This document shows positions 6,229 to 31,408 of a stretch of 45,872 bases of DNA, piece after piece. The DNA lies in the IMG/VR virus record IMGVR_UViG_3300020202_000106, positions 1 through 45,872 of that record, one strand, 5' to 3'. Below the pieces are notes generated by a model. It was not told the DNA's origin. It was given only the letters and a program-made list of their open reading frames with translations, and did no database searches. Both the position numbers and the translations under genes were made by a program. How positions within the stretch are numbered: the stretch's first letter is position 1; each line of letters begins with the position of its first letter. The stretch comes from a virus.

Positions 6229-6238
6229 TTCGCCTGAC

Positions 6239-6254: not shown

Positions 6255-6283
6255 GAGCCCCGCCATGCCGGACACCCGCCCCA

Positions 6284-6511
6284 ATGGATAGAGCCGAACG
6301 CGATGCGCTCCGACGTGCCGTGATTGCTGGTCCGGGGGATTGTATCCTCGAACCTGCCGAGGCCGCGGCCATCATGGGCGTCTCCGAGCGCTGGCTACGG
6401 GACTCGGATGTCCCACGGGCGCCGAACGTCGCCGGGCCGAAGTACCTCAAGTCGCAGTGCATCGCCTACGTCGAAGTCCGTCTCACCCATCGCGTCCTGA
6501 AATCCGCATGA
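6284..6511 (+). CDS. xis: excisionase-like HTH protein
   Basis: 75 residues with a winged-HTH/MerR-like segment (EPAEAAAIMGVSERWLRDSDVP) and a basic C-terminus (YLKSQCIAYVEVRLTHRV), the layout of small recombination directionality factors. It ends inside the integrase start (ATGA at 6508), so the two are co-translated. It probably binds near attP and biases the integrase toward excision; that role is inferred from size, fold and position. Confidence 0.65.
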   Translation: MDRAERDALRRAVIAGPGDCILEPAEAAAIMGVSERWLRDSDVPRAPNVAGPKYLKSQCIAYVEVRLTHRVLKSA

Positions 6512-7623: not shown

Positions 7624-7661
7624 ATGAAAACCGCATGTCGTACTATTCGTCGTAGTCGTGC

Positions 7662-7696
7662 TGCCGCGGGGTGCCGGACGGTGCCGCCACGTGCCG
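7662..7696 (+). repeat. four TGCCG repeats at 10-bp spacing
   Basis: TGCCG occurs at 7662, 7672, 7682 and 7692, exactly one helical turn apart, 45 bp upstream of the attachment core. Phased direct repeats beside attP are typical of arm-type integrase or excisionase binding sites. Confidence 0.55.
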
Positions 7697-7740
7697 CGCG
7701 CTCTCTATGGAAGGGGGGCCGGTCGGGGGCTATCACTAGC

Positions 7741-7790
7741 CTTAGGATCTGGCGCCGCAAGGCGTGGGGGTTCGAGTCCCCCCTCTCGCA
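7741..7790 (+). other. attP: attP core: 3' half of a tRNA-Leu(UAG) gene
   Basis: The sequence contains, in order, an anticodon loop CTTAGGA (anticodon TAG), the 3' anticodon stem TCTGG, a variable arm CGCC-GCAA-GGCG, a T arm GGGGG-TTCGAGT-CCCCC, a 3' acceptor strand CTCTCGC and discriminator A. The class II variable arm identifies tRNA-Leu. The sequence 5' of the loop does not pair as an anticodon stem (CTAGC against TCTGG) and no D arm exists, so this is not a functional tRNA. It is the expected identity segment that restores the host gene after integration. Confidence 0.88.
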
Positions 7791-7925
7791 TGATGAAGTA
7801 GGGCTTGCGGTTACGGGCGTGATGTCACCGCCCGTCGCACCCCCGTTGCGGCTCCATGTCGCACGATCGGTCGTAGTACCCCGCCGATCTGCCGAGCCCT
7901 GCCTCCCCTTCCGCGCTCGGTTCCA

Positions 7926-7938
7926 GGGGGATGCCCCC
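7926..7938 (+). promoter_or_regulatory. GC hairpin before the gene at 7950
   Basis: GGGGG-ATG-CCCCC, a 5-bp stem with a 3-nt loop, lies immediately before GAGGTG and the GTG start at 7950. It has no T tract, so it is not a classical terminator; it may limit initiation or attenuate transcription entering from the tRNA side. Confidence 0.4.
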
Positions 7939-7949
7939 CGAGGTGCCGC

Positions 7950-8384
7950 GTGAACGGCCGGGCGAAGGTGCCGACTGCCGCCGAGGTCGAGGCGGCGCGA
8001 AAGGTGATCGACGCCGCCCGGCGGGCCGAGGAGGCCGCGAAGCGCGCGGAGGCGATGGTGCTGGTCGGCCGGTACTTCCGGTATCGGAACAGCTACAGCA
8101 GCGGCGGCAAATGGTGGATGTACTTCGCACCGACTGGGGCGGGGTACGGGGGGAGCTCGACGGGCTGGACGTTCGAGCGCACCTCCAATGGCGAGGTGAT
8201 GATCAACCTCAAGGCGAGCGCCTACCTGCACGGGGGTGGCGACGGCACGGGGTACATCGAGATCACCGCCGCCGAGTTCTGGCGCGCCGCTGCCTCGCTC
8301 CGCTCGTCCCTCGTTGCGCAGCTCACCCGCCCGAAGCCCCGTTCCCGTCGTTCCAGAGCATCGGGAGGACGGGACCATGGGTGA
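7950..8384 (+). CDS. phage protein of unknown function, first gene after attP
   Basis: 144 residues from a GTG with GAGGTG five bases upstream. An N-terminal alanine-rich helix (AARKVIDAARRAEEAAKRAEA) precedes a beta-rich, aromatic region (RYFRYRNSYSSGGKWWMYF, GWTFERTSNGEVMINL) and a basic tail. No family recognised. It is the first phage gene downstream of the reconstituted tRNA in a prophage. Confidence 0.65.
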   Translation: MNGRAKVPTAAEVEAARKVIDAARRAEEAAKRAEAMVLVGRYFRYRNSYSSGGKWWMYFAPTGAGYGGSSTGWTFERTSNGEVMINLKASAYLHGGGDGTGYIEITAAEFWRAAASLRSSLVAQLTRPKPRSRRSRASGGRDHG

Positions 8385-8823
8385 GACCCGATACGTCCTG
8401 GGGTTCCTATTCGCCCCTGAGCACGAATACGTCGTACTGCTCCAGAAGTCGCGCGGCCCTGGGGAGATGGCGGGGCGGCTCAACGGCATCGGTGGGCACG
8501 TCGAGGACGGCGAGAGCCCCGAGGATGCGATGCGGCGTGAGGGCATCGAGGAAGTCGGAGCGGTTCACGCGGAGTGGAAGCCGTTCTGCCTCATGCGCGG
8601 CGACGGGTGGGTCTGCGACTGCTTCGCCGCAGTCAGTCAGGACGCGCTCGAAGTGCCTGGGGAGAACGACGTCGGCGAGAAGGTCTACTGCCTCCCGCCC
8701 TCCGCGGTCCTCCTAAGTCCCAACCTCATGCGCAACGTGCGCTGGCTCCTCCCGATGGCGATGGAGGCCGACGACCTGCACGCGATCGTCACCTACGTCG
8801 ACAGCAAGCGAGGTGACCGATGA
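8377..8823 (+). CDS. Nudix hydrolase
   Basis: 148 residues with a near-complete Nudix box at residues 40-62: GHVEDGE, then seven residues, then REGIEEVG, matching Gx5Ex7REUxEExGU except for a glycine at the first hydrophobic position. Such enzymes hydrolyse nucleoside diphosphates linked to another moiety. The N-terminal YVLGFLFAPEHEYVVLLQK is the typical first strands, with RLNGIGGHVE leading into the box. The start ATG overlaps the previous gene. Substrate unknown; nucleotide-pool cleaning is a common guess in phages. Confidence 0.92.
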   Translation: MGETRYVLGFLFAPEHEYVVLLQKSRGPGEMAGRLNGIGGHVEDGESPEDAMRREGIEEVGAVHAEWKPFCLMRGDGWVCDCFAAVSQDALEVPGENDVGEKVYCLPPSAVLLSPNLMRNVRWLLPMAMEADDLHAIVTYVDSKRGDR

Positions 8824-9353
8824 CCTCCCTCCCGGTCTCCTCCAAGGAGAAAGGCCCGGAACTGTCGGGCGTGGCGCTAAGCGTTCGCGTTGCCGAAGTC
8901 GTGTTCGGCGAGGTTGAGGCGCACGCCCCGTGCGGCGACGGTCTCACTCGGACGGACAGGTTCTATGGGCCGACGCTCGCGAACTGCGATGAGCAGATCC
9001 GGCGTGCGTACCCCAAGAGCCTCGCACGGGGCGAGCTCTGGCCCGCCGAATACTGCGGTCCCGACTACCAAGGCGACATCGCCTCCGCGTGGCTGGTGGT
9101 GGAAGCAGTCGCCAGACGGACCCGTCGTGACTTGGGCGTGCGCCTCTCCGGCAACGACGCTGACGGGTTCTGGTGCGAGTTCTACGACACGTCGCCGATG
9201 GGCTACGTCCGAGCGGATGGGACAGACGTCCCGCCGCTGGTGATGGAGGAGGTTCACGCATCCATCGCCCCCGCTGCGCTCTGCCTCGCCGCGTTGCGCG
9301 CCGTTGAGCTTGACGCCGGTTCGCTCTCCACCCCGGAGGGATCGAGACCATGA
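8820..9353 (+). CDS. Phage ABA-sandwich domain-like protein
   Basis: 177 residues. The pattern GDIASAWLVVEAV, then GFWCEFYD, then IAPAALCLAALRAVE resembles the phage ABA-sandwich (BC1872-like) family, where an alpha-beta-alpha fold ends in a helix rich in AxxLAAL. The function of that family is unknown. The start overlaps the Nudix stop (ATGA). The C-terminal codons STPEGSRP contain a CTCC/GGAG hairpin before the next start. Confidence 0.65.
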   Translation: MTSLPVSSKEKGPELSGVALSVRVAEVVFGEVEAHAPCGDGLTRTDRFYGPTLANCDEQIRRAYPKSLARGELWPAEYCGPDYQGDIASAWLVVEAVARRTRRDLGVRLSGNDADGFWCEFYDTSPMGYVRADGTDVPPLVMEEVHASIAPAALCLAALRAVELDAGSLSTPEGSRP

Positions 9354-14702: not shown

Positions 14703-15200
14703 CTACTCGCGTGGCCCGGCCGCCGCGCGCATCGAGACGCACCGCTCGCGCAGTCGGGCCAGCGTCTCGGCGCTGAGCTGTCGCGGCGGCGAGTAGCGGA
14801 CTCGGTTCGCCTTGAAGGCCGCGCGCAGTTCGGCGTGCGCCTCGGCGCCGAGGAAGTGCCGCACCAGCTTGAGGTAGACCGCCGCGTATCGATAGTCGTG
14901 CTGGCAACCGGCAGGGGCGACGCAATGCGCCACCTCGTGCAAGATGTACTGCGGGTGCCGCGCGAAGCGGGGGAGTGTCAGCCATCCCGTCGTGTTCGCC
15001 GCGCCCCGTCGGCGCCCCCTCCCGTCGTGCGCCCGAAAGCGCCATCGACCGAAGTGGCGCCGGAACCATCGGTCTCGCTCGATGCGCTCCAGGTAGGCCC
15101 ACACCTCGACCATCGTCGTGAACGGCCTTCTCTGAAACGCAGCCGTCGACCGCTCTGCCCTGTACAGCTTCGCGCGCTGCGTGTCTCGCGTCGTGCTCAT
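14703..15200 (-). CDS. TIGR04338-like HExxH putative metallohydrolase
   Basis: 165 residues on the minus strand. The zinc motif HEVAH at residues 88-92 (YILHEVAHCVAP) and an N-terminal RDTQRAKLYRAER match the TIGR04338 putative metallohydrolase family known from actinobacteria and their phages. H101 is a possible third ligand. A good ribosome binding site (GGAGG, 5 nt) precedes the ATG at 15200. It is the only minus-strand gene in 7.9-41.9 kb, has its own promoter region and may be expressed at a different time, for example in the lysogen. Substrate unknown. Confidence 0.85.
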   Translation of the reverse strand: MSTTRDTQRAKLYRAERSTAAFQRRPFTTMVEVWAYLERIERDRWFRRHFGRWRFRAHDGRGRRRGAANTTGWLTLPRFARHPQYILHEVAHCVAPAGCQHDYRYAAVYLKLVRHFLGAEAHAELRAAFKANRVRYSPPRQLSAETLARLRERCVSMRAAAGPRE

Positions 15201-15705: not shown

Positions 15706-15977
15706 GCGGAAGGCGCAAGGGCCGTCGCCGTCGTCGCCTCTGGCTCGCTGATCCGCATTGCCACTATTGCGGACAACTCACGGTCTACGTGTCGGCGCTG
15801 CCGGGAAAGACGCTTCCGTGGAACGCAGCGACGGTGGACCACATCCATCCTCGCGGGAGCGGGAAGGTCCGGCACCGTCAGGCGGAGCACGTCCTCGCCT
15901 GCTGGTACTGCAACATGAAGCGCGCCGATCGGCCTTACGAGGAGTTTCGCGCCCGATTCGCTGAGGCGGTTTCATGA
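15702..15977 (+). CDS. HNH endonuclease
   Basis: 91 residues from GTG (GTGA overlap, GGAGGAAGGGAG upstream). It has the HNH core: CHYCG, then ATVDHIHPRGSGKV, then EHVLACWYCNMKRADRPYEEF. The histidine of VDHIHP, the second histidine of EHVLACWYCN and the zinc-binding CxxC pairs are all visible. It is a free-standing small HNH protein between unrelated phage genes, in the recombination/packaging neighbourhood, so it may be a homing-type nuclease or take part in DNA processing. Confidence 0.88.
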   Translation: MSGRRKGRRRRRLWLADPHCHYCGQLTVYVSALPGKTLPWNAATVDHIHPRGSGKVRHRQAEHVLACWYCNMKRADRPYEEFRARFAEAVS

Positions 15978-16537
15978 CCCCCCTCCCACCCCAGCAGGGA
16001 CGCGAACGCGGCGCACGCGGGACCGGCCTCACCTTCGACCAGATCGTGCGGCACATGGTCGAGATGGGGATCCCGCACGCCAAGGCCGACGCCCAGGCCC
16101 GACGGGAGTGCGGCTTGCCGGCCGCCGACCTGGACACGCCCCGCCAGATCATCGAGCGCGCACCGTCGATCAAGCTCCCCGTCTCGTTCGTGCTTCCCTG
16201 GTCCGCCCTCGTCTCCGACAACCGCCGGCACGGACTGCTCAACGGCTCCATCCTCCTCACCGCTGAGTACCGCACCGGGAAGGCGAAGGCCAAGGCAGCA
16301 GCGCGGGAAGCGGCGGGGCTCGGAATGGCCGTCTCGTTCCCCGTCGCGCTCCATGCCCGCGTGTACGTGCCGGACGACTACCGCGCCCACGACGTGCCGA
16401 ACTTCGCAAAGTGCGTTCACGACGCCATCGAAGGCGTGATCTACACCAAGGATCGATGGCTCTGGCGCGCGACGTGGGAACGTGCTGGAGTCGACGTAGA
16501 CCGCCCCCGCGCCGAGATCGAAGTCACGCCGCTGTAA
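15974..16537 (+). CDS. rusA: RusA-family Holliday junction resolvase
   Basis: 187 residues. The C-terminal 120 residues follow the RusA pattern: LPWSALVSDNRRHG, TAEYRTGKAKAKAAAREA, then the acidic metal-binding stretch YRAHDVPNFAKCVHDAIEG and VIYTKDRWLWRATW, where the aspartates of HDVPN, HDAIEG and KDR correspond to the catalytic carboxylates. The N-terminal 55 residues are extra and include a helical segment with DKADAQARRECG-like composition. RusA cuts Holliday junctions before packaging. ATG overlaps the HNH stop. Confidence 0.9.
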   Translation: MTPLPPQQGRERGARGTGLTFDQIVRHMVEMGIPHAKADAQARRECGLPAADLDTPRQIIERAPSIKLPVSFVLPWSALVSDNRRHGLLNGSILLTAEYRTGKAKAKAAAREAAGLGMAVSFPVALHARVYVPDDYRAHDVPNFAKCVHDAIEGVIYTKDRWLWRATWERAGVDVDRPRAEIEVTPL

Positions 16538-16573: not shown

Positions 16574-16807
16574 ATGCTGACCCCTCCCAACCTTCTGTCC
16601 GTCGCCCCCACTCTCTCGCTGCATCCGGACCTGATCCAGTTCTGCGAAGTCACAGACCGCCACGGATACGGCCTGCGCCTCCGCGTCTATGTGTCGGAGT
16701 CGCCCGGTGTGTTCAACGTCCCCGCGTCTGACGTCCTGCCCGATGCGTGGCGCGTACTGGGGCTGTCCTCACCGAATGCGGAGGCTCCCGCCAATGTCCT
16801 CCCCTGA
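16574..16807 (+). CDS. hypothetical protein, 77 aa
   Basis: MLTPPNLLSVAPTLSLHPD followed by a beta-rich part (GYGLRLRVYVSESPGVFNV). Unrecognised. Ribosome binding site GGAG in CCCCGGAGACC upstream. Overlaps the next gene by 14 bp. Confidence 0.6.
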   Translation: MLTPPNLLSVAPTLSLHPDLIQFCEVTDRHGYGLRLRVYVSESPGVFNVPASDVLPDAWRVLGLSSPNAEAPANVLP

Positions 16808-17021
16808 CCATCCCGAGATCCCACCCGCGCTCTCCGATGAGGAGTGGTCCGCCGAGGGGCGCGAATATGTTGCTCGGTACGTGTGGCGGGCTCGTTTCGT
16901 CCGCCGCCGCCACGAGATCCAACTAGACGACGGAACGCGAATCTGGTTCCACCGCGTCGAGCTTCACCCCCGCGTCGCGCGCATCGTCTCGTACGCTCCC
17001 GTCTCCCCTCCCCATGACTGA
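16794..17021 (+). CDS. hypothetical protein, 75 aa
   Basis: MSSPDHPEIPPALSDEEW, then a basic beta region (YVWRARFVRRRHEIQLDDGTR). Unrecognised. GCGGAGG at 16777 is its ribosome binding site. The end overlaps the glycosyltransferase start by 8 bp, so it may be part of that transcription unit. Confidence 0.6.
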   Translation: MSSPDHPEIPPALSDEEWSAEGREYVARYVWRARFVRRRHEIQLDDGTRIWFHRVELHPRVARIVSYAPVSPPHD

Positions 17022-18189
17022 GACCATCTCCACGACCGACTCCCTCCCCGTCGAACTCGGATGGGGTATCAGCACCGCCACCGGGTGGGGGCTGTTCGCA
17101 CTCCACGTCGCGCTCGGCCTCGCCCGCGAAGGTCGCCGCGTCCACGTCCTCGCGCGCTCTGATCTCTCGGGCGTCCCGGCGACGTTGCTCCCGACGCTCG
17201 CGCCGATGCTCGAACCCGGCGACGTGAGCGAGCGGCGTATCCGGATCGAGGGCTACGGCAACCACTGGCCCGCGTTTGTCGACGTCCCCAACCGCGTCCG
17301 CGTCCTGCTGGCCGTCTTCGAGGACACCGCCATCCCAGTTCACGCTGTGGACGATCTCAAGCGCTACGATCTGATTCTCACTCCATCGACCTGGGCACAA
17401 GGCGTCCTTAAGGCGAAGGGCATCCACTCCACGGTCTGGCACCAAGGGTACGACGACACTCTGTTCACCCCCGCGCCGCGCCGGCGCCCGAAGGACGGTC
17501 GGTTTTACGTCTTTTCGGGCGGCAAGCTCGAATTTCGGAAGGGGCAAGACATCGTCGTCGAGGCGTTCAGACGATTCCGGGAGACACCGGAAGGCCGGGA
17601 TGCCGTGCTCGTCACCGCGTGGCAGAATCGCTGGCCGCCGACCATGCACTCCATCTGGGAGTCCGGGTACGTCAAGGGCGTTCCCGTCATCCGCGACGGT
17701 CGGGCCGACATCACGGCATGGCTCGCGGCCAACGGGATCCCGCCCGACGCGACGATGGACCTCGGCTTTCTTTCGCAGGAGCAGTTCGCCAGCGCCATCC
17801 GAGAATGCGACGTCGCGCTCTTTCCGAACCGCTGCGAGGGCGCGACGAACATGGTGCTGCCCGAGGTGATGGGGAGCGGTGTCCCGTGCATCGCGAGCCA
17901 GAATACCGGGCACCTCGACGTCTTTGGCTCTATTGATCCCGATCTGCAACTCACCCATCAGTCCCCGGTGACGCTCCCGTGCCCGTTGTTCACCGGCATG
18001 GACGGCTGGGGCGAATCCGACCCCGAAGAATGCGTTAACGCACTTCAGCGAGTGCGCCAGCGCGCCCTCCCGCCGATCGTCATTGCTGGGGCCCAGTTAG
18101 GAGCCGCCGAACGCGCGTTTGCTTGGTCAACCCAAGCCCTCTGGCTGGACATCCTCCTGTCTTCCGCGGATTCCCTCGCTCATGCCTAA
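17014..18189 (+). CDS. GT4-family glycosyltransferase
   Basis: 391 residues with a GT-B fold. The N-terminal domain starts with ELGWGISTATGWGLFALHVALGLA. The C-terminal domain has FSGGKLEFRKGQDIVVEAF (glycosyltransferase group 1 signature) and the nucleotide-sugar site NRCEGATNMVLPEVMGSG near residues 271-288, with two glutamates seven residues apart (E274 and E283 region). It transfers a sugar from an activated donor. It leads a cassette with a TPR/glycosyltransferase and a FkbM methyltransferase, joined by overlapping starts. The acceptor (host envelope, virion protein or DNA) is not visible in the sequence. Confidence 0.9.
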   Translation: MTETISTTDSLPVELGWGISTATGWGLFALHVALGLAREGRRVHVLARSDLSGVPATLLPTLAPMLEPGDVSERRIRIEGYGNHWPAFVDVPNRVRVLLAVFEDTAIPVHAVDDLKRYDLILTPSTWAQGVLKAKGIHSTVWHQGYDDTLFTPAPRRRPKDGRFYVFSGGKLEFRKGQDIVVEAFRRFRETPEGRDAVLVTAWQNRWPPTMHSIWESGYVKGVPVIRDGRADITAWLAANGIPPDATMDLGFLSQEQFASAIRECDVALFPNRCEGATNMVLPEVMGSGVPCIASQNTGHLDVFGSIDPDLQLTHQSPVTLPCPLFTGMDGWGESDPEECVNALQRVRQRALPPIVIAGAQLGAAERAFAWSTQALWLDILLSSADSLAHA

Positions 18190-19714
18190 GGCCAAACGCA
18201 TTCGGGTCATCAGGGACGGCAACCCCGTCCCGGCCTCCGACCGTCCCCTCTCGATCGTCGGCACCAAGCGCTGGCGGGAGACCGTGCCACAGCACCTCCA
18301 GCAGCCGCTTGCCCAGGCCCTCCGGGCAATGGAGGACAACAACCTCCCCGAAGCGCTCAAGTGGTTCGGCGCTTGCGCGGACATCGAGCCATTCTCCAAG
18401 CCGGTGTTGTACTTCGGTGGCCAGGTCGCGGCGCAGGGCTACTTCACGCTCCGCGGCCAGGACCCGAACCACCCGAACCTCCCAGAGTGGCGGGGGATCG
18501 CGGAGACTCTCGTCCGCGCCGCATTCGAAGTCGCGCCCGACGATGCCGTTGCCTGTCACAACCTCGGTCGGTTCCTACAGGACGCCGGAGACGATGCCGA
18601 GGCGATTCCGGTCTACCGCCATGCGCTGCTGCTCGACGAGAAGCAGGTCGAGACGTGGGGCAATCTCGGGACTGCCCTCTACCAACTCGGCCGCGTCGAG
18701 GAGGCGTGGGAGTGCTGGCGCCAGGCGACCGCCCTCCCCGCCGACAAGGCCAGCGCTCGCCTCGCGCAGTCCTACATCTGGCTGCGCCAGGGGCGGTACA
18801 CGGAGGGCTGGGGCGCGTACAATGACCGCTGGAGGGACCTTGAGTTCCAGCGAGGCTACGGTCGCTTCAAGGACCTCGGTCCTAAGCACTGGCGCGGAGG
18901 TCCACTCCCGAAGCGTCACGCGCTCTACGTCCACGGTGAGCAAGGGTTGGGCGATCACGTCCAGTTTGCGCGGTACGTGGCCGAACTCCAGCGGCAGGGC
19001 TACACCATCGCTGCGCTCGAGACGCGGGCCGTCCTCAAGCGGTGGATGGAGGCGAGCTTCCCCGGCCTCGCCATCCACGTCCGGGACACTCACCCCCTGC
19101 CCGAGTACACGCATCACGTCTCAACGCTGGACCTGCCGGGGATTCTAGGGACTACAGTGGAGACGATCCCGGCCCCGATGCCACCGACATTTCGGGACTC
19201 GACGAACGAGGACATTAAGACGCTGATGCGAAGGGTGGCCGGTGACACATCCATCCGCGTCGGCATCGCTTGGGAAGGTGCGAAGGGCAACCCCGCGGAC
19301 TCCATCCGCTCCATCCCACACGAAGCGCTTCGGCATCTGGCCGACATCCCGAACGTGACGTGGGTGGCGCTCCAGTTCGCGCCGGACGCGCCGATGGTCG
19401 GTCGCGCGTGGCTCGGCAAGCAGTTTATCGACGGCGCAGACGGCTGTCAGGACGCCCTTGATACGGCGGCCGTCATGCGCGGTCTCGATCTGGTCGTCAC
19501 CGTGGACACGTTGACCGCACACCTCGCTGGAACGCTCGGTGTCCCTACATGGGTGCTCCACCGCTTCTGCCGGGAGTGGCGATGGCTCGACCAGGGCGAG
19601 GCTTGCCCATGGTATCCGTCGGTTCGCTCGCTGACGGTGTCGACGCCTGGGGACTGGGACGGCCTGCTCGCGCGCGTCCGCGTGGGAATCATGGAGCGCG
19701 TCCCCCATGGCTGA
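18182..19714 (+). CDS. TPR protein with C-terminal glycosyltransferase domain
   Basis: 510 residues. The N-terminal half has tetratricopeptide repeats (AVACHNLGRFLQDAGDDAEA, QVETWGNLGTALYQLGRVEE). From about residue 355 a GT9/GT41-like domain follows: VGIAWEGAKGN, SIPHEALRHLADIP, DTAAVMRGLDLVVTVDT, TAHLAGTLGVPTWVL and CPWYPSVR. Such TPR-glycosyltransferases modify proteins or glycans, with the TPRs binding the acceptor. ATG overlaps the GT4 stop. Confidence 0.88.
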   Translation: MPKAKRIRVIRDGNPVPASDRPLSIVGTKRWRETVPQHLQQPLAQALRAMEDNNLPEALKWFGACADIEPFSKPVLYFGGQVAAQGYFTLRGQDPNHPNLPEWRGIAETLVRAAFEVAPDDAVACHNLGRFLQDAGDDAEAIPVYRHALLLDEKQVETWGNLGTALYQLGRVEEAWECWRQATALPADKASARLAQSYIWLRQGRYTEGWGAYNDRWRDLEFQRGYGRFKDLGPKHWRGGPLPKRHALYVHGEQGLGDHVQFARYVAELQRQGYTIAALETRAVLKRWMEASFPGLAIHVRDTHPLPEYTHHVSTLDLPGILGTTVETIPAPMPPTFRDSTNEDIKTLMRRVAGDTSIRVGIAWEGAKGNPADSIRSIPHEALRHLADIPNVTWVALQFAPDAPMVGRAWLGKQFIDGADGCQDALDTAAVMRGLDLVVTVDTLTAHLAGTLGVPTWVLHRFCREWRWLDQGEACPWYPSVRSLTVSTPGDWDGLLARVRVGIMERVPHG

Positions 19715-20534
19715 GACCACCCTTGTCGTCCCCGCCGCTCCGGGCCCCCTCCATCTCTCGCTGGACCCTCGAAGCCCCGTCCAAGCCGCCATGCTGTGCG
19801 ATCTCGTTACCATCGACGGCTACGAGCCTGGGACCTGGGCCACGTTCAAGGCGCTACTCCGACCCGGGGACTTCTATATAGATGTCGGCGCCCACATCGG
19901 CGTGTTCACCTGCCTCGGCGCGCTGATCGTCGGTCCCACCGGGCGAGTGCTTGCCTTCGAGCCTGACAACGACAACCGGCGCCGACTTCAGCAAAACGTC
20001 GCCCGCAACGGCTTCGCGCATGTCGCGATCGACAAACGGGCCGTGGCGAACGTCACGGATCGCCTGAGCTTCTACCGGTGCGCAGACAACGACGGCGGCC
20101 ACGCGCTGTACAACCCTGGCCGGGCCGCCGCGAACGTCAAGACGCGGGCGCACCCGAAACAGTCCATCGTTCGCACCACGACCCTCGACGACGCCGTTCT
20201 GCCAGGTTCACCCCCGGTCCGGCTCCTCAAGATCGACGTGGAGGGTGCCGAGGTAAACGTCCTTCGCGGCGCCCAGCGCATCCTGGGCACGGACCGCCCT
20301 GCGATCATCGCGGAGATCAACGCGTTCGGCCTCCAGCAGATGGGGGAAGGCGAGCACACCCTCCGCGCATTCCTACGGTCGTTCGGCTACCAGGAATACG
20401 GCATCCAGGACGTGGCTCCCCATCGTGTCCCACTCACCCCCGAGCAAACCATCCAGCAGCAGGAGTACAACGACGGGGTGCTCTACATGACCGTCTTCAA
20501 CATGCTGTTCCTCCATCCCGAGTCTGGCCGATGA
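19707..20534 (+). CDS. FkbM-family SAM-dependent methyltransferase
   Basis: 275 residues. SAM motif I is FYIDVGAHIGVF (residues 56-67), then VLAFEPDNDNRRRL, and the FkbM hallmark LLKIDVEGAEVNVLRGA, followed by AIIAEINAFG. FkbM enzymes O-methylate sugars or other small acceptors. Its position as third gene of the cassette, overlapping the TPR/glycosyltransferase stop, suggests it caps or decorates the glycan made by the upstream enzymes. Confidence 0.92.
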   Translation: MAETTLVVPAAPGPLHLSLDPRSPVQAAMLCDLVTIDGYEPGTWATFKALLRPGDFYIDVGAHIGVFTCLGALIVGPTGRVLAFEPDNDNRRRLQQNVARNGFAHVAIDKRAVANVTDRLSFYRCADNDGGHALYNPGRAAANVKTRAHPKQSIVRTTTLDDAVLPGSPPVRLLKIDVEGAEVNVLRGAQRILGTDRPAIIAEINAFGLQQMGEGEHTLRAFLRSFGYQEYGIQDVAPHRVPLTPEQTIQQQEYNDGVLYMTVFNMLFLHPESGR

Positions 20535-20806
20535 CGACCGACCCCAATGCCCCGCGCCGCCCGCTCACCGATCAGCAACGCATCGTCGCCGAGTTGGTCG
20601 GTCGCGGCCTCGACGCTCCTGACGTCGCCCGACGGCTGGGCATTCGGCCGTCCACCGTCCGGTCACACGTCAACGCCATCGCGCTCCTCCTCCCCAACCC
20701 GGACCACCTGGGCGCGTACCGGCTCGTCATGCTCTGGGCGGCTCACGAACGCTGGATGCGGGACTGCCACCCCAACCCACCTGACGTTCCCCGCAAAATT
20801 GCGTAG
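20531..20806 (+). CDS. LuxR-type HTH regulator, 91 aa
   Basis: A free-standing GerE/LuxR helix-turn-helix: PLTDQQRIVAELVGRGLDAPD, VARRLGIRPSTVRSHVNAI, with no receiver or ligand domain. The start overlaps the FkbM stop. It is the last gene before the terminase operon and could be the activator of late transcription or a regulator of the glycan cassette; nothing in the sequence decides between these. Confidence 0.85.
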   Translation: MTTDPNAPRRPLTDQQRIVAELVGRGLDAPDVARRLGIRPSTVRSHVNAIALLLPNPDHLGAYRLVMLWAAHERWMRDCHPNPPDVPRKIA

Positions 20807-20855: not shown

Positions 20856-21014
20856 ATGGCGAAGCAGCCGGGCCGCGACGACACCGTATCGATCGCGCCG
20901 CGATACTGCGGCGCCTGTTCGCGTCTCCTCGATAGTCGTACTGCCGTTGCCCGCCACAACATCCGTTGTGCCGATACCGGCGAGCGGGCCTACCCGCGGG
21001 CGGTGGGGCGCTGA
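20856..21014 (+). CDS. 52-aa zinc-finger-like protein preceding the terminase
   Basis: MAKQPGRDDTVSIAPRYCGACSRLLDSRTAVARHNIRCADTG contains CGAC and HNIRC, a C2HC finger. The stop TGA overlaps the terminase small-subunit start (TGATG). Short, but the overlap, the finger motif and codon composition support it. It may be an accessory DNA-binding protein for packaging; that is inference. Confidence 0.55.
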   Translation: MAKQPGRDDTVSIAPRYCGACSRLLDSRTAVARHNIRCADTGERAYPRAVGR

Positions 21015-21319
21015 TGCCAAGACGCGCCACCTCAACGTCTTTCGGCGGAAAAGCTGGCAACCCCCGAAATACGACTAAGCCAGGCCCGGGACGTCCACCC
21101 GACGTCTTCCGCCATCGGATGCAGCAGCTCGCGATGCGTGCGGCGCACGCGAAGCGCCTTGAGACCTTGCTCGGCGACGAGAGCGATGACTCGGCGTTCC
21201 TGAAGGCGTTCGCCGAGGTGTGCGATCGCGGCTTCGGAAAGGCTCCGCAGTCGGTCGACGTCACGAGCCAAGGCGAGCGAATGCAGTCGCTCCTGGTATG
21301 TCCGCCGGAGACCGAGTGA
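21014..21319 (+). CDS. terS: terminase small subunit candidate
   Basis: 101 residues. A basic glycine/proline-rich N-terminus (GKAGNPRNTTKPGPGRPPD) precedes helices ending CDRGFGKAPQSVDVTSQGE, a pattern typical of small phage terminase subunits with a GRP-rich start and a G-G-K-P-QxV end. It would recognise the packaging site. ATG 21014 is chosen over upstream codons because of the overlap with the 52-aa gene. It overlaps the large subunit GTG. Confidence 0.8.
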   Translation: MPRRATSTSFGGKAGNPRNTTKPGPGRPPDVFRHRMQQLAMRAAHAKRLETLLGDESDDSAFLKAFAEVCDRGFGKAPQSVDVTSQGERMQSLLVCPPETE

Positions 21320-22866
21320 CAACCCAGGCCCTGGATCCCGCCCTCTTCGCCTACCCGATGGAGATGGATGGGCGACCGGTGGCGTGGCAACCACTCAAGG
21401 GTTTTCAGATGCGCGCGGCATCCAATGGGGCGTTCGAGTGCCTGCTCGGTGGGGCGGCTGGTCCCGGGAAGACATCGGTGCTCGTCGGGTTGGCTGGGAA
21501 GTACGCTCACCACCCACGCGCTCGCGTCATCTTCTTCCGCACGGTCTACAAGGACACGCTGGACATACGGGATCGGATGCACGGGCTCTATCCGCAGCTC
21601 GGGTTCCAATGGATCGCGACGGATTCGCGGTGGCAGTCGCCAGTCGGCGGCACGGTCCAGATCGCCCATGCGAAGACGCTGACGGAGATCACTGACTACC
21701 TCGGCCCCGAGTACACCGCCGTGATGTGGGATGAGTTGTCTCTTGTCCCCGATGAGGTGGTCTGGCAGATGATCCTGGGCCGCATCCGCTCCACCGATCC
21801 GACCGTCCCCCTCCGGGCGCGCGCGACCGCCAACCCGATCGGACCAGGTCGGTCGTGGCTCAAGCAGCGTTTCGTGGATCTCTGCGGGAAGAAGGGTGAG
21901 CGCACATACCGGGATCCAGAGACCGGCCGTACGCGCGGCTATGTGCCGGGTACGGCGAGGGACAATCCCCTCCTCCCGCAGAGCTACTGGGACGGCCTCA
22001 AGGACCTCCCGCCATCGGTCCAGGCGGCGTTGCGGGAAGGGGACTGGGATATGGCCCTCGGACTCTTCTACCCGGAGCTGATGGACGACCGCCACCTCGT
22101 CGTGCAGCGGCACGACCTGCCGCCGCTTGAGGACTGGCACGAGTGGTGGGGCGGCTTTGACTGGGGGTTTGCCCACCCGGCCGCCTTCGGTGCCTACGTC
22201 CGCGTTGAGAACACGGTTTACAAGCTCGATACGGTGTACATGCACCGTTTCCAGGACGAGGAGCAGGCCGCGACGATCAAAGGGTCCGTTGACAAACGAT
22301 GCCTCCGCATGGTGTACGCCGGGGCGGACGCGTTCGCGAAACGGCAGGCCCATGTTGCGGCGGCGGAGACGGTGGCGGATGTGTTCGCGCGGTACGGGAT
22401 CAACGTAGAACGGGCGAACGTCGACAAGCTGGCGCGGGCCAAGGTAATGCGTCGGATGTTCGCCATGGACCGACCTGGTCCGATGGTAGCGGGCCAGATC
22501 CGGTTGAAGTTCGTCGACACTCCCGGGAACCGTCGGTGCTTGAGCGAGTTCGCCGCACTCGTGCCCGACGAGCTAAACCCCAACGTGCCGGCGAAGCGCG
22601 ACGCCAACGAACGCGGGCTGAACGGGGACGATGGCGCGGACGAGACGTCCATGGCGATGGCGACAGCCAGCTTCGAGCCAACGGAGCCAGCCGCGCTGTT
22701 CTCCTACTCGAACGTCGCCAGCGCCGCCGCAATCCCGGCGCCGTGGGAGATCCAGCAACAGGAGTGGCGGATGCCCAGCGAGGATGGAACGATCGACCGA
22801 CGGGTCTACCAGCACCGCACCGGGCTGGACTCGTCTGACAACCAGTTCGGCGGGGAGGGCTGGTAG
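21316..22866 (+). CDS. terL: terminase large subunit
   Basis: 516 residues from GTG 21316 (GTGA overlap). ATPase: Walker A GGAAGPGKTS and Walker B AVMWDELS. Nuclease (RNase H-like): GFDWGFAHP (first Asp), YAGADAFAKR (second Asp) and GADETSMAMA (third acidic position). The family packages DNA into proheads by ATP hydrolysis and cuts it at the end. The length is typical. The start codon is GTG rather than the upstream codons because the small subunit stop falls on the same bases. Confidence 0.95.
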   Translation: MTTQALDPALFAYPMEMDGRPVAWQPLKGFQMRAASNGAFECLLGGAAGPGKTSVLVGLAGKYAHHPRARVIFFRTVYKDTLDIRDRMHGLYPQLGFQWIATDSRWQSPVGGTVQIAHAKTLTEITDYLGPEYTAVMWDELSLVPDEVVWQMILGRIRSTDPTVPLRARATANPIGPGRSWLKQRFVDLCGKKGERTYRDPETGRTRGYVPGTARDNPLLPQSYWDGLKDLPPSVQAALREGDWDMALGLFYPELMDDRHLVVQRHDLPPLEDWHEWWGGFDWGFAHPAAFGAYVRVENTVYKLDTVYMHRFQDEEQAATIKGSVDKRCLRMVYAGADAFAKRQAHVAAAETVADVFARYGINVERANVDKLARAKVMRRMFAMDRPGPMVAGQIRLKFVDTPGNRRCLSEFAALVPDELNPNVPAKRDANERGLNGDDGADETSMAMATASFEPTEPAALFSYSNVASAAAIPAPWEIQQQEWRMPSEDGTIDRRVYQHRTGLDSSDNQFGGEGW

Positions 22867-22869: not shown

Positions 22870-23364
22870 ATGAGTGACCCCTACGATCCCCGCGGCGCGC
22901 TCACGGTCGTCCAGGACGCCATCCGACGGAACACGCCCGTCATTCACGGCGAAGATGGGCGACCGATGGGCGGCGGCCTGGTTGATGAGGAGGGGAACGC
23001 CTACGCGCCGCAGGTCCGGCCGGAGACCGTGTGCTTCCTCCTGGTGCAGTGGTGCGCCGGGCTCGCGGTCATCCCCGACGACTTCCACAACGTGCCGAAG
23101 ACGGCCGGTGGCCTGCGGGAGCACGTGCGGCCCGACGGTGGGGTCTACCTCGGCCTGTTCGAAACTCCAGCCGATCCGGCGGGCGCGGTCGTGGTCTACG
23201 GGGATCCGCTCATGGACATCAAGGATGCGATGCGCCGGAGCCTCCAGTATCGCGCGAAGGTGTTGGCACAGCTCGACACGTTCGATCGTCACCATGCGCT
23301 CGGCCCGTTCGCTGCCGCGACGACCGGCCCCACGAGCGATCTGAACCAGGAGACCGTCTCATGA
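22870..23364 (+). CDS. hypothetical structural-region protein, 164 aa
   Basis: MSDPYDPRGALTVVQDAI, with alpha/beta content (VRPETVCFLLVQWCAGLAV, GGVYLGLFETP). Unrecognised. It lies between the large terminase and a fibre-like protein and overlaps the latter's ATG, so it is part of the late operon. Confidence 0.65.
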   Translation: MSDPYDPRGALTVVQDAIRRNTPVIHGEDGRPMGGGLVDEEGNAYAPQVRPETVCFLLVQWCAGLAVIPDDFHNVPKTAGGLREHVRPDGGVYLGLFETPADPAGAVVVYGDPLMDIKDAMRRSLQYRAKVLAQLDTFDRHHALGPFAAATTGPTSDLNQETVS

Positions 23365-24449
23365 CGTACCCGGTCGTCTCGACCACCAGCAATGGCGATG
23401 CCTCGGCCGCGTTCATCGCGGCAGCGCAGAAAGCAGGCATTAACGTCGGCGGCCTCCAGGCTGTGGCCCAGGTCCAGCTCGCGCTGGCGAACCTCTTTGC
23501 GGAAAGCCCGCCCGGCCAAGTCGCGACGTGGGACGACATCACGCTCGTCGGCGGCACCGTGACCACGTCAACCCCTGTTCTGACGGCGACGCAGACCTGG
23601 AACGCGGGCGGCGTCACCTTCGAGGGCATTCTCTTCACCGTCACGGACACGGCGTCCGCGGCGGGCTCGTTGGTGCTGAATCTCAAGGTGGGTTCCTCCT
23701 CGATATTCTCGGTCCGCAAGGACGGTCTCGTCGCCGCGGCGAACGCCGCGATCGCGACCGGCACCATCACGACCAGCCAACCCCTGACGCTGACGCAGAC
23801 GTGGAACGCGGGGGGCGTCACCTTCGAGAGTATTCTGGTGACGGTCACCGATACCGCGTCCGCCGCCGGATCGTTGCTGCTGAACCTGAAGGTCGGCTCG
23901 ACCTCGATGTTCTCGGTATCGAAGGCCGGTGCGGTCACGGGCGTGACGTTGGTTGCGTCGACCAGCATCAGTGCGCCGGCCACCGGGTCGTCGTTCTCGT
24001 CGGCGTTTGGTGGAGGGGCCTCCCTCACGCTGCGAAACACCAGCACCAACGCGGGCGCCCTCATGTCGCTGGCGTTTGGCAACGACGACAGCTCGGCCGC
24101 GGCACGTATCACGATCTATGCGACGACGCACTCCACGCGTCCGAGCTACTTGGACATCATCAACACCGCGAACGCGCCGGTCGTCGTCGGGACGAACAAC
24201 GCCGAAATCTTCCGGCTGACGGCGGCGACGATGACGATGGCCGCCAGCACGACGCTCGTCGGTCCGGACATCCGCACGTCGGCCGCTGCCGCGACGGTCG
24301 CGGCCGGGCAGATCGGCTGGGGCGCCACCACACAGACCACGGTGGGGGCGGCAGGCGGGGCCTCCGCGCTGCCCGCCACGCCGACCGGCTACGTCATCAT
24401 CAACGTGGCGGGCACAAACCGCGTGATTCCCTTCTACGCAGCGGCGTAA
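23361..24449 (+). CDS. fibre-like virion protein with tandem 68-residue repeat
   Basis: 362 residues. Helical N-terminal 40 residues, then a serine/threonine/alanine-rich, beta-prone body with two tandem copies of a 68-residue unit (QTWNAGGVTFE...TDTASAAGS, then NLKVGS..FSV.K.G) and a C-terminal region ending YVIINVAGTNRVIPFYAAA. The composition resembles trimeric phage fibre shafts and head fibres. It lies upstream of the portal, whereas the main tailspike is at 34.3 kb, so it may be a head or accessory fibre. Exact role unknown. Confidence 0.7.
   Translation: MTYPVVSTTSNGDASAAFIAAAQKAGINVGGLQAVAQVQLALANLFAESPPGQVATWDDITLVGGTVTTSTPVLTATQTWNAGGVTFEGILFTVTDTASAAGSLVLNLKVGSSSIFSVRKDGLVAAANAAIATGTITTSQPLTLTQTWNAGGVTFESILVTVTDTASAAGSLLLNLKVGSTSMFSVSKAGAVTGVTLVASTSISAPATGSSFSSAFGGGASLTLRNTSTNAGALMSLAFGNDDSSAAARITIYATTHSTRPSYLDIINTANAPVVVGTNNAEIFRLTAATMTMAASTTLVGPDIRTSAAAATVAAGQIGWGATTQTTVGAAGGASALPATPTGYVIINVAGTNRVIPFYAAA
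23592..23920 (+). repeat. 204-bp tandem duplication in the fibre-like gene
   Basis: Segments beginning at 23592 and 23796 (offset 204 bp, 68 codons) are highly similar for about 120 bp each, starting CAGAC-TGGAACGCGGG. The duplication is in frame and expands the repeat domain. Confidence 0.8.
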
Positions 24450-25760: not shown

Positions 25761-28037
25761 ATGACTGCCCCGTCCACCCTCGGGCTACTGGACCCCTCCG
25801 AGCACCCGGAGATCAACCCGAGCGCCATTGATCAGCTCCTTTTCACGCCCGGGGTCGCGCCACTCGCTATCCCGCGGCAACTCACGGAGCCGGTGACGCC
25901 CGAGGCCCTGACGGCCCAGCAGCAGGGACAGACCCCGGACGCCATCGCGTTCGACGATGACGAGCGTCGACAGCAGGAGATCGCGGACAAGGACCGTCGC
26001 TACAAGGCGCTCAAGGCCATCTACGGCCCCCTGTTTCCGCTCTGCTTGGAGCATGAGCCGACCGACGCGGATTGGCAGCGATGGTGTGATGAGCGGTGGG
26101 AGCTCCACGGCCCCGGGGTGCAGCGCAACATCTGGATGGCGGAGCGCAATCGGCGATTCCGGAACGGCGACCAGTATCAGTCCCGGGTCAATGGCATGGG
26201 CGCCTGGCGCGAAACGCCGATCCCGAAGGATGCGGTCCGCATCGTGGACAACCGCATCCGGCCGGCGCTCGCCTGGGCCATGCAGGTCGTCGCCGAACAG
26301 CGGCCGGGCTGGCAGTTCAAGCCGACGAACACTGATCCCGACCGCCAGCGAAAAGCTGAAGCCCAGCAGCGCGCGGTCGAGTACCAGTACGATGCGCAAC
26401 AAAAGCGGCTGATCGACAAGGAAGCGCTCTACTGGGCGCAGACCGATGGCGTCTCGTTCCAGATGACCTATTGGGACACCGACCGCGGTCCGTGGGAGGA
26501 GCTGGAGCAAGGCCGCGGCCCAGTGCCGATCGGTGAGCCCTATACCCGCGTCTTTCGCATCGAGCAGGTACGCGTGTCGGCCGAAGCCACGGCAACGGTT
26601 GCGCCGATGTACTGGCTGGTGCGAGACATCCTCCCGATGCAGTACGCAGTCTCGATGTACGGTCCCGAGGTCGCCGACGCGCCCGACCAGGCGTTGCTCG
26701 CGCAGCAGGCGTCCCAGTTCACTGCCACCAATCAGTACCTCTACGCGCCGCTCTTCCAGAACCAACCGACGGTTGCGCGCTACTTCGTTTTCTGCGACAA
26801 GCGCGACTGGCTACAGGAAGGGCTGACCGCCATCGTCGTTGGCCGCAAGCTAGTCTATGGGCCCAAGCCGTTGCTGATGGGCCGCGTGCCGATGCTGCGG
26901 GTGACGGACGGATCGGAGGATCCCGCCTTCTTCCCGGTGCCGCGGATGAACCTGTTGGTCGCGCCGCAGATGCGCATCAACATGCTGTGGTCGAAGTGGT
27001 ACGAGTCCATCCGGAAGAACTCCGGAGGCCGGTACGCCTCCAAAACCAACGCCATCTCGTCCGAGACGTTTATCGGCGGTGAGACCTCGATCCTCGAAGT
27101 GCGGACGGCGGGTGACATCCGCGAGTCCTTCATGCCCGTCCAGGGGTTCTCGGTCGGCAACGACATCAAGGAAGCGCTCGACCGCGAAATCAAGACCATC
27201 GAGGACCTGACCGGCTATACCGCCGAGGCGCGGGGTCAGTTCGCATCCGACCAGTCGGGCCGCGCGATCCTCGCCCAGCGAGAAGCGCTGGAGCGGGTCT
27301 TTGCGCCCCAGGTCGCGGCACAGGCCGAGGCCAACACCGAGTGGGCGCGCCAGACCGTCGGGTGGATGCGGTTCGGCTACCAGATGCCGCGGAAGATCGC
27401 CGTCCTGGGAAAGGATCGCTCGGACCTGGCCGAGGAACTGACGGCGGCCGATCTCGACGGCGTCGTGGACGTGACGGTGGATCCCGCCACGATGATCCCT
27501 CAGCCCATGGCGCTGAAACAGTGGATGCTCGACAACGCCTACGACCGCCAGATCATCAGCAAAGAGCAGTGGCTTGAACGGTCGCAGTTCGGTGACGTGC
27601 GGGACATGCAGGCCCCGAACGAGGTGCAGTACCAGAAAGGCAAGCGCGTGTCGGAGCAGATCCGGCTTCGCCAGCCCCAGGAGCCGATCGTGTGGCAGGA
27701 CGACGAATCGATCCAGCAGACGATTCTGGAGCGCGACCTAATCCTTGCCGGCGGGATCGATCCCGACATCCGGCTGGCGGCCGACATGCGCTGGACCGCC
27801 CTCGCGCAGCAAGCCGCGCGAAAGATGACCCCGATGCTCCCAGGAATCATGCCGGGCGCACCGGGTACGGACGGCCCTCCGACAACGGGCCAACCCATGG
27901 ACCCTCGGACCGCTCCGCTGTTGAACGCAGGCGCCTCGCCCTCCGTGGCGTCGGCGCCCGCGGCAGCGCGCGGCGGCCCCGGAGTCTCCGACCAAGAACG
28001 CGCGGCCGCGCAATTCGAGGCGCGGGCCCCGCAATGA
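25761..28037 (+). CDS. portal protein (P22-type)
   Basis: 758 residues. The head-tail connector ring, through which DNA is packaged. Recognised by the size, the ERNRRFRNGDQY then RIVDNRIRPALAWAMQVVAEQRPGW opening, an aspartate-rich QMTYWDTDRG, and the long helical C-terminal half ending in a Q/P/A-rich tail, as in P22-like portals. The large size and its place directly before the scaffold and capsid genes support the call. The glutamine-rich C-terminal region could form the portal barrel. Confidence 0.88.
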   Translation: MTAPSTLGLLDPSEHPEINPSAIDQLLFTPGVAPLAIPRQLTEPVTPEALTAQQQGQTPDAIAFDDDERRQQEIADKDRRYKALKAIYGPLFPLCLEHEPTDADWQRWCDERWELHGPGVQRNIWMAERNRRFRNGDQYQSRVNGMGAWRETPIPKDAVRIVDNRIRPALAWAMQVVAEQRPGWQFKPTNTDPDRQRKAEAQQRAVEYQYDAQQKRLIDKEALYWAQTDGVSFQMTYWDTDRGPWEELEQGRGPVPIGEPYTRVFRIEQVRVSAEATATVAPMYWLVRDILPMQYAVSMYGPEVADAPDQALLAQQASQFTATNQYLYAPLFQNQPTVARYFVFCDKRDWLQEGLTAIVVGRKLVYGPKPLLMGRVPMLRVTDGSEDPAFFPVPRMNLLVAPQMRINMLWSKWYESIRKNSGGRYASKTNAISSETFIGGETSILEVRTAGDIRESFMPVQGFSVGNDIKEALDREIKTIEDLTGYTAEARGQFASDQSGRAILAQREALERVFAPQVAAQAEANTEWARQTVGWMRFGYQMPRKIAVLGKDRSDLAEELTAADLDGVVDVTVDPATMIPQPMALKQWMLDNAYDRQIISKEQWLERSQFGDVRDMQAPNEVQYQKGKRVSEQIRLRQPQEPIVWQDDESIQQTILERDLILAGGIDPDIRLAADMRWTALAQQAARKMTPMLPGIMPGAPGTDGPPTTGQPMDPRTAPLLNAGASPSVASAPAAARGGPGVSDQERAAAQFEARAPQ

Positions 28038-29407: not shown

Positions 29408-30739
29408 ATGGCTCAGAACATCATGTACATCACCGACACGGAGTTGGCCGGTGATCTCAAGAACCTCTACCAGGATATTCGGCAGGATCTCGTCCCGATC
29501 GTAACCCCCCTCCTCTCCGCGATCAAGAAGCGGGAGAACAACGGGATCGGGAACGTGCAGTGGGGCGGCAACAACATGCACTTCGACGTGGTCACCCAGC
29601 CCGAAGTCAACTGGAGCTGGTCCACCACGGGACAGCTTCCCTACTCCTCGCAGGCCAAGGAAGTCCAGGGGAACGTGGGCATCGCGCGGTTCTACATCAC
29701 GCGCGCCTTTGACCGCCTCCCGATCGTCGGCACCCAGACGAAGGAAATGGCGTTCATCTCGCTCCGCGAGAAGATCACCCGCGCCTTCGCCCAGGGCTAC
29801 CAGCTCGGTATGCAGGAGGCGTTGCACGGCAACGCCACCGGTGTCAAGGCGATCATCATCACCGCGGCAACCACCGTCTCGATCGTGGTGGAGAAGCCGT
29901 ACGGCGTGACCGGCGCCGGCCAGGGCGGCCTCTGGCTCAAGCCCGGGATGTACGTCACCGCCTACGACGCGACCGGCGTCACCAACCGCGGCACGGCGCA
30001 GATCTCGGCGGTCGGCAACGTGCTCACGTCGGCCACCGGGGTCTGTACGCTGACGCTCGCGACCGGCATCTCCAACATGGCCGCGACCGATCTGATCGTG
30101 CAGGCCAACCAGTCCGGCGACGCCCTCAACGCCTACTGCAACGGTCTGATCAACATCACCAATCGGGGCGGGGCGTACACGACGCTGCACGCGCTCTCGG
30201 CCGCGACCTACGGCCGCTGGGATGCGACCAAGTACACCGCGGGTACCCAGGTCGGCCCGACCTGCGAGGAGATGGACATCTGGACCCTCGCAACCGACCT
30301 GTTCGCGAAGTCCGGCATGAACGCGACGGTCAATCCGAGCGAGTACCTGATCGTCACCACGTTCGGCATCGGCAAGCAACTGATCCAGTCGGTCCTTGGA
30401 CAGCGGACGATGCCCGTGTCCGGGTCGCAGAAGATCAAGCTGCCGAACGGCTACGAGTGCGAGACCATCCTCGGCATCCCGCTGGTGATGGACCCGTACT
30501 GCCCGCTCGGAACGCTCTACCTGCTGCACCTCCCGTCGCTGTTCTGGGTCGATGCGCTCGACTGGTCGCCCGTGCAGTACGAGTCCTCGGGCACCGTGCG
30601 GTTTGTCGCCGGCCAGGACGCCTTCGAGATCTCGATGGCCCAGTATCTCAACGTCGGGACCAAGCAGCGCAATGCCCACGGGTCGATCATCAGTTACACC
30701 GACTCGCAGGCGTACAACTGGAACGTCAGCAACGGGTAA
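29408..30739 (+). CDS. major capsid protein
   Basis: 443 residues. Gene position after the scaffold, size, and a beta-rich HK97-like sequence (VNWSWSTTGQLPYSSQAKEV, FYITRAFDRLPIVG, EALHGNATGVKAIIITAATT) support it. TYGRWDATKYTAGTQVGPTCEE and the long hydrophobic-turn C-terminus are consistent with P22/T7-like phage coat proteins. The protein is the main building block of the icosahedral head. Confidence 0.85.
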   Translation: MAQNIMYITDTELAGDLKNLYQDIRQDLVPIVTPLLSAIKKRENNGIGNVQWGGNNMHFDVVTQPEVNWSWSTTGQLPYSSQAKEVQGNVGIARFYITRAFDRLPIVGTQTKEMAFISLREKITRAFAQGYQLGMQEALHGNATGVKAIIITAATTVSIVVEKPYGVTGAGQGGLWLKPGMYVTAYDATGVTNRGTAQISAVGNVLTSATGVCTLTLATGISNMAATDLIVQANQSGDALNAYCNGLINITNRGGAYTTLHALSAATYGRWDATKYTAGTQVGPTCEEMDIWTLATDLFAKSGMNATVNPSEYLIVTTFGIGKQLIQSVLGQRTMPVSGSQKIKLPNGYECETILGIPLVMDPYCPLGTLYLLHLPSLFWVDALDWSPVQYESSGTVRFVAGQDAFEISMAQYLNVGTKQRNAHGSIISYTDSQAYNWNVSNG

Positions 30740-30843
30740 CCGCCCTGACGGACCCGCGATGGGCATACATCGCGTGACGGACCGGAGGGCGCCGGTGCCC
30801 AACATGCCGGCCGGCGCACCGCACGATGGAAGGAGGGTGGGAC

Positions 30844-30874
30844 GGAGGACTCGAGCGGTGGGGCTCGGGCCTCC
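30844..30874 (+). promoter_or_regulatory. long imperfect hairpin after the capsid gene
   Basis: GGAGG-act-CGAGC, loop, GCTCG-gg-CCTCC folds into two stacked stems in the 207-bp gap between the capsid gene (ends 30739) and 30947. It lacks a T tract. It may attenuate transcription so that the capsid mRNA exceeds the downstream tail mRNA. I see no gene in this gap. Confidence 0.5.
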
Positions 30875-30946: not shown

Positions 30947-31408
30947 ATGGGTGCATTCACGAAGAAGGACGCGAACTGGCCGCGGAACTTCCGTCCGCGT
31001 CCCGGCAGTTTCGCCACGATGTTCGCCGTGCTCGGTGCGGCGATCGGCACCGGCGGTGTCGCACTCACCGGCACGGCCACCACCACCATCTACGTACCCG
31101 TCCCCGCGGCCCGCGTGTTTTCGGTGACCTCCGCGGGCATCCAGGGACCAACCCCGGCGGACGGGTCGGGGAACATCACGGCCCAGCTCATCCGGAACAA
31201 CGCGGGCACACCGGTCACGCTGACGGCGGCGACGTCGATTAAGGCCGCCGTGCTCACGTCCGACTGCACCGATTGGCCGATCACCGCCACGGACCAGAAC
31301 CGCACCTGCAACGCCGGCGACACGCTCCGGTGGGAAGTGGTCGCCGCGGCCACCGTCGGAACCGCTCCCCAGATCACGGGCGTGGTAGAAATCGCGATCC
31401 AATACTGA
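30947..31408 (+). CDS. head-associated protein candidate, 153 aa
   Basis: MGAFTKKDANWPRNFRPRPG then glycine/threonine/valine-rich beta strands (GTGGVALTGTATTTIYVPVP, ITAQLIRNNAGTPVTLTAATS). Position directly after the capsid gene suggests a decoration protein. Unrecognised; ribosome binding site GGAGG at 30929 and GGAGGG close to the start. Confidence 0.6.
   Translation: MGAFTKKDANWPRNFRPRPGSFATMFAVLGAAIGTGGVALTGTATTTIYVPVPAARVFSVTSAGIQGPTPADGSGNITAQLIRNNAGTPVTLTAATSIKAAVLTSDCTDWPITATDQNRTCNAGDTLRWEVVAAATVGTAPQITGVVEIAIQY

Follow-up and report, generated by a model that had tools for sequence, protein, structure and literature searches.

FlmG of Caulobacter crescentus, a protein of 596 residues with a tetratricopeptide repeat (TPR) region and a GT-B glycosyltransferase domain, is a soluble enzyme that O-glycosylates flagellin in the cytoplasm, binding it via the TPR region (PMC7591256). 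In mycobacteriophages, phage glycosyltransferases have been linked to capsid and tail glycans (Freeman et al. 2023 as cited in PMC11256854, PMC12619734). Here we analyse a three-gene cassette at positions 17014-20534 of the 45,872-bp virus record IMGVR_UViG_3300020202_000106; the window below means this whole stretch. The cassette encodes a GT4 glycosyltransferase, a glycosyltransferase with TPRs (TPR-GT) and an FkbM-family methyltransferase. Judging from sequence, it is probably, though by no means certainly, a phage-encoded soluble system for O-glycosylation of a virion protein, in which GT4 would extend the glycan and methylation would cap it. Virion glycosylation is already known in phages; this enzyme set, TPR-GT, GT4 and methyltransferase, is new. 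No literature on TPR-GTs beside phage capsid genes was found among open-licence PubMed Central texts.

The three adjacent open frames lie where an earlier note on this DNA had placed them, and Pfam, NCBIfam and PHROGs support GT4, the TPRs and FkbM, the glycosyltransferase half of the second protein matching only weakly:

17014..18189, plus strand: GT4 (GT-B) glycosyltransferase, 391 aa (PF00534, 1.7e-8; phrog_2170, 5.6e-14)
18182..19714, plus strand: TPR and GT-B glycosyltransferase, 510 aa, predicted protein O-glycosyltransferase (TPR_2, 2e-10)
19707..20534, plus strand: FkbM-family S-adenosylmethionine (SAM) methyltransferase, 275 aa (PF05050, 1e-24; TIGR01444, 2e-30)

The three enzymes

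The GT4 and TPR-GT frames overlap by 8 nt, as do the TPR-GT and FkbM frames. All three proteins are kept in related phages at 38-64% identity, and thus the frames are not a product of chance. The GC content is 66.3% in the cassette and 66.9% in the remainder of the window, so that composition gives no signal of a recent import. No membrane helix stands out in any of the three proteins.

The GT4 protein scores 34.6 bits with PF00534 (cut-off 26.4), and its predicted structure matches the fold of GT4 (GT-B) enzymes. Its identity across four relatives is 41-55%. The invariant residues E275 and E284, eight apart in an E-x8-E pattern, form a motif that exceeds the usual EX7E by one residue. A search with the single sequence found no viral relatives, whereas an alignment-based search retrieved them. 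Among 50,697 cultured-phage records GT4 has zero relatives, and TPR-GT has two distant matches.

In TPR-GT, the TPR region occupies approximately residues 40-210 and the glycosyltransferase domain about 235-510; identity in relatives is 49-64%. The ATG start at 18182 agrees with the relatives, and a TTG start at 18119 was dropped. The best fold matches of the structure model (predicted local distance difference test, pLDDT, 79) are SPINDLY and OGT, with probability 1.0 and template modelling (TM) scores of only 0.2-0.36. No homology to the GT41 catalytic domain was found, as the profile search aligned residues of the TPR region only. The second half of the protein weakly resembles Glyco_transf_9 (GT9, PF01075; E 0.013, 15.3 bits, cut-off 22), and the stretch involved is the C-terminal VDTLTAHLAG motif.

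TPR-GTs of 566-652 aa were found in six of 13 Caulobacteraceae flagellin loci. They are presumed to be FlmG orthologues by size, place and family, FlmG not itself being retrieved by name. The window protein can be aligned with them over 427 aa (28%; residues 110-509), and the similarity covers both domains. This homology, together with the activity of FlmG, supports protein O-glycosylation, and the window TPR-GT is predicted to glycosylate Ser/Thr residues of the protein that its TPRs bind. The argument of the earlier note that the TPR domain favours a protein acceptor is supported, both by homology and by the recurrent gene association described below.

The FkbM protein scores 88 bits with PF05050 (cut-off 22.7) and 106 bits with TIGR01444 (cut-off 37.7). 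Its SAM motif DVGAHIG is conserved, and it has a relative with solved structure, 2py6. It is predicted to be a sugar O-methyltransferase.

The cassette in related phages

Searches with the portal protein and TPR-GT retrieved four related contigs, G001-G004, and a partial contig, G005; G003 is also partial. Both GT4 and TPR-GT are present in all four of G001-G004, that is, in five of five genomes including the window. A methyltransferase (FkbM and/or Methyltransf_24) accompanies the pair in four of the five. The gene orders, where HTH is a helix-turn-helix gene and TerS and TerL are the small and large terminase subunits, are as follows:

Window: GT4, TPR-GT, FkbM, HTH, putative TerS, TerL
G001: GT4, TPR-GT, two small genes, FkbM on the late-gene strand, convergent with RusA
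G002: GT4 and TPR-GT, convergent, followed by putative TerS, TerL
G003: GT4, Methyltransf_24, small gene, FkbM, TPR-GT, TerL
G004: putative TerS, GT4, Methyltransf_24, opposite-strand TPR-GT, TerL

Order, strand and position are thus shuffled; the GT4/TPR-GT pair is constant and the methyltransferase is exchangeable. The overlapping three-gene array described in the earlier note is real, but it is local to the window genome, as related phages have these genes inverted, apart or convergent. Retention of the pair in five of five genomes through inversions and relocations supports a cassette for virion-protein glycosylation.

A further relative, G067 (capsid identity 74%), has no GT4, and its TPR-GT has a second TerL-like gene on one side and a second portal on the other. 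This contig (L232-L234) contains two related head-gene modules, at 1-9163 and 39605-50310, with the portal, the capsid and a small head gene each doubled. It may be a chimera, or two phages in one.

The reciprocal, alignment-based search with GT4, with loci read in six frames, yielded 16 viral loci, 14 of them distinct once L213-L215 are joined. TPR-GT was found in 11 of the 14; its absence from L210 and L211 is uninformative, as both begin at a contig end, within GT4 or immediately before it. FkbM is present in six (L204, L206, L210, L212, L213, L217) and Methyltransf_24 in three (L206, L207, L208). The order differs here as well: TPR-GT, FkbM, GT4 in L213; FkbM, GT4, TPR-GT in L212; TPR-GT, GT4, FkbM in L217. 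Eight of the 14 loci adjoin terminase or portal genes, several of them in unrelated phages. These genes were assigned by profile match in L205, L206 and L208, and by our own reading of the sequence, with no profile match, in L207, L209, L210, L212 and L213, whose phages are only distantly, if at all, related to the window. In many phages the neighbours of the cassette are packaging and head genes, rather than integrase or immunity genes.

Capsid-linked viral enzymes

Grouping of viral TPR-GTs at 80% identity gave 36 clusters. In 20 of these, TPR-GT is the second or third gene after the major capsid gene, separated from it by one or two small genes; the capsid belongs to Phage_capsid_3 (PF13252) or SU10_MCP (PF17236). 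The loci are:

L111, L112, L113, L114, L117, L119, L123-L130, L132, L148, L157, L163, L166, and L002 (MW202512.1, Podoviridae sp. ctDrO704)

The genes downstream mostly encode SAM methyltransferases, GT8-like or other glycosyltransferases, or radical SAM proteins. The probability of such placement by chance is about 1e-15 to 1e-20, or about 2e-8 on a strongly reduced count; these values assume independence, which fails, and are guides only. The set of capsid-linked TPR-GT, methyltransferase and GT8-like genes, sometimes with radical SAM, is widespread in uncultured phages.

A tree of the glycosyltransferase domain was constructed (quick IQ-TREE, with Shimodaira-Hasegawa-like approximate likelihood ratio supports, SH-aLRT, only; G004 was left out, its gene having been missed by the gene finder). 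The clade with the window TPR-GT (support 100) sits among bacterial sequences. The capsid-linked viral enzymes are elsewhere, with the Caulobacteraceae flagellin-locus enzymes, and the labels of the other viral rows require at least three changes. Common ancestry of the window enzyme with the capsid-linked ones is unsupported by the tree, and profile comparison of the window capsid protein with the Phage_capsid_3 and SU10 capsids showed no relationship.

Bacterial loci

The bacterial set consists of 77 loci with TPR-GT, about 20 of which also hold GT4. Flagellin lies beside the GT4/TPR-GT pair in Geomonas (L033), Citrifermentans (L038) and Opitutia (L064), all three flagellin-adjacent TPR-GT loci thus carrying GT4. 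Flagellin linkage as a general bacterial rule was rejected, since flagellin is near only three of the 77 loci (by a small flagellin profile); in complete genomes, for example those of L073, L066 and L040, the flagellins are far from the TPR-GT locus. In many Rhizobiales and related loci, the pair has a giant RTX-like secreted repeat protein as neighbour, and about nine of these loci also carry genes reading as type I secretion components. Flagellins and giant RTX-like secreted proteins beside the bacterial pair are contexts of protein acceptors.

Nine Rhizobiales and related loci (L036, L039, L057, L059, L068, L073, L078, L083, L088) encode a giant RTX-like protein, GT4, probable type I secretion genes and two TPR-GTs each, one of about 1,650 aa. 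Such a set resembles machinery devoted to glycosylating and exporting a surface protein. A locus of Telmatospirillum siberiense (L028:2-21523), open at both ends, contains a 7,174-codon open frame full of TPR-GT matches.

Possible mechanism and alternatives

As no nucleotide-sugar synthesis gene was recognised, the donors would be nucleotide sugars of the host. TPR-GT would bind the acceptor through its TPR solenoid and O-glycosylate Ser/Thr, as FlmG does with flagellin; GT4 would add a further sugar; and the glycan would be O-methylated by FkbM, with Methyltransf_24 acting instead or in addition in some relatives. The acceptor would most likely be a late virion protein (capsid, head-associated or fibre-like), giving the particles a coat of methylated glycans. 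The earlier note had the GT4 enzyme acting before TPR-GT, and methylation last. Sugar transfer and methylation are supported by the enzyme families and their recurrent association, but the analogy with FlmG reverses the order of the transferases: TPR-GT should act first, on the protein, and GT4 second. A virion protein, one of several acceptors proposed at that time, is now the favoured target.

Several observations weigh against this proposal. The strand of TPR-GT in G002 and G004 opposes that of the late genes, and no methyltransferase was seen in the G002 cassette. In the window lineage the cassette adjoins the terminase, not the capsid gene, and since the window TPR-GT falls outside the capsid-linked branch, nearer to bacterial enzymes, the capsid association is only a parallel. 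The acceptor remains at the candidate level, and the activity is predicted. Finally, the acceptors known or suggested in bacteria are host surface proteins, which would also fit a host target.

The main rival target is a host flagellin or surface protein. Flagellin or a secreted repeat protein would be modified by the cassette, in infection or in lysogeny, so that a receptor is altered or other phages are excluded. The bacterial GT4/TPR-GT pairs beside flagellins and secreted RTX-like proteins, the grouping of the window TPR-GT with bacterial enzymes and the integrase encoded in the window all agree with this. However, no integrase homologue was found in G001, G002 and G004, all holders of the cassette (G003 and G005 being partial), which speaks against a role in lysogeny only, and the company of the cassette is packaging and head genes, not integrase or immunity genes. 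We consider this explanation unlikely. Serotype conversion, in which polysaccharide or lipid-linked sugars of the host envelope would be modified, is improbable. Polysaccharide pathways often include GT4 and FkbM enzymes, and serotype conversion is known from P22-type phages; however, the Pfam and NCBIfam matches of the cassette include no flippase or bactoprenol glucosyltransferase of the gtrABC-like kind, and the cassette has no clear membrane helix or other membrane protein. Moreover, both the TPR domain and the gene neighbourhoods in bacteria indicate protein acceptors. The host-envelope target of the earlier note thus has little support.

The same holds for its modified-DNA target. Phages can use glycosyltransferases to hypermodify DNA (Pyle et al. 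2024, cited in PMC12619734), but a thymidylate-synthase-family gene (PF00303) is absent from the window and the five relatives, in a search whose controls worked, and a search for Tet/JBP (PF12851) gave no match, though with no responding control. Glycosylation of phage DNA seems extremely improbable. The remaining explanation is that three unrelated accessory genes were gathered by chance in a hypervariable spot. The variable order and orientation and the non-universal FkbM would be in line with this, but rearrangement has not parted GT4 and TPR-GT, and the two recur together in unrelated phages and in bacteria, and we regard a chance gathering as quite improbable.

Beyond virion-protein glycosylation by the window cassette, the chances seem about even that bacterial TPR-type protein O-glycosyltransferases were recruited by phages on several independent occasions. 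A modular system for virion glycosylation (TPR-GT, second glycosyltransferase, methyltransferase) would then be widespread, located beside capsid or packaging genes in phages of two or more capsid families and hardly ever seen among cultured ones; the window would carry its GT4/FkbM variant. If so, protein-specific O-glycosylation of particles would be common in uncultured phages and would use the same TPR-guided enzyme type as bacterial flagella. Such glycosylation systems would be compact, soluble and portable, with built-in acceptor recognition, and would account for many orphan glycosyltransferase, methyltransferase and radical SAM genes after phage capsid genes.

Candidate acceptors

The gene associations supply testable candidates for the acceptor. 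Three window proteins are offered as a suggestion only:

29408..30739, plus strand: major capsid protein (phrog_14242, 4e-11), 70-85% identical to those of G001-G004
30947..31408, plus strand: conserved 153-aa protein after the capsid gene, Ser/Thr 20%, 39-57% identity in five relatives
23361..24449, plus strand: Ser/Thr-rich protein, 362 aa, Ser/Thr 25%, the top content among window proteins of at least 100 aa

The last of these is encoded just after TerL, as are proteins of G001 (30789-31292), G002 (6103-6696), G003 (19634-20416) and G004 (16766-17476). Comparison by eye shows that an N-terminus of about 50 residues is alike in all of them and that the remainders are unrelated; in G002 the N-terminal unit occurs three times. 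The family is possibly a modular fibre or decoration protein.

Neighbouring genes

The cassette is flanked by recombination and packaging genes, in agreement with the earlier note:

15974-16537, upstream of the cassette: RusA (Pfam, PHROGs)
20531..20806, plus strand: GerE-like HTH protein (23.7 bits, cut-off 23.5)
20966..21319, plus strand: possible TerS, 42-52% identical to small genes in G001, G002 and G004
21298..22866, plus strand: TerL (phrog_2, 1.4e-29)
25761..28037, plus strand: P22-like portal protein (PF16510, 1.3e-7; phrog_156)

The position of the putative TerS, directly before TerL or the cassette, is kept in three relatives. The HTH gene, which shares 4 nt with the FkbM gene, had been described as a LuxR-type HTH following the cassette. 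The GerE match exists, although it is borderline; no homologue was found in the relatives of the window phage, which places the gene outside the conserved set, and it was rejected as a cassette member. The podovirus label given earlier would be in keeping with the P22-like portal and with the lack of any very long tape-measure gene. A lone minus-strand gene in the early region (14703-15200) encodes a 165-aa protein with an HEVAH motif and no PHROG match, perhaps a small zinc metallopeptidase.

Comparison with known systems

As in the mycobacteriophages, the glycosyltransferases of the window are phage-encoded. Those phages are different ones, and the cited passages do not mention a TPR-guided enzyme. 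MW202512.1 and the 19 other capsid-linked viral clusters share with the window a TPR-GT, a methyltransferase and a second glycosyltransferase beside head genes, but they form a separate branch of the family, and a GT8-like or other partner replaces GT4. OGT and SPINDLY (GT41) have the same layout of TPR plus GT-B, whereas sequence similarity to the window TPR-GT is restricted to the TPR part. The likeness to GT9 heptosyltransferases (PF01075) is weak and below the cut-off, being located at VDTLTAHLAG, and the window protein has an additional TPR domain. FlmG, compared via its presumed orthologues, is similar in its N-terminal TPR region, C-terminal GT-B domain and soluble nature. Unlike FlmG, the window enzyme lies outside the flagellin-locus clade, with no pseudaminic acid genes recognised; it is encoded by a phage and is accompanied by GT4 and a methyltransferase.

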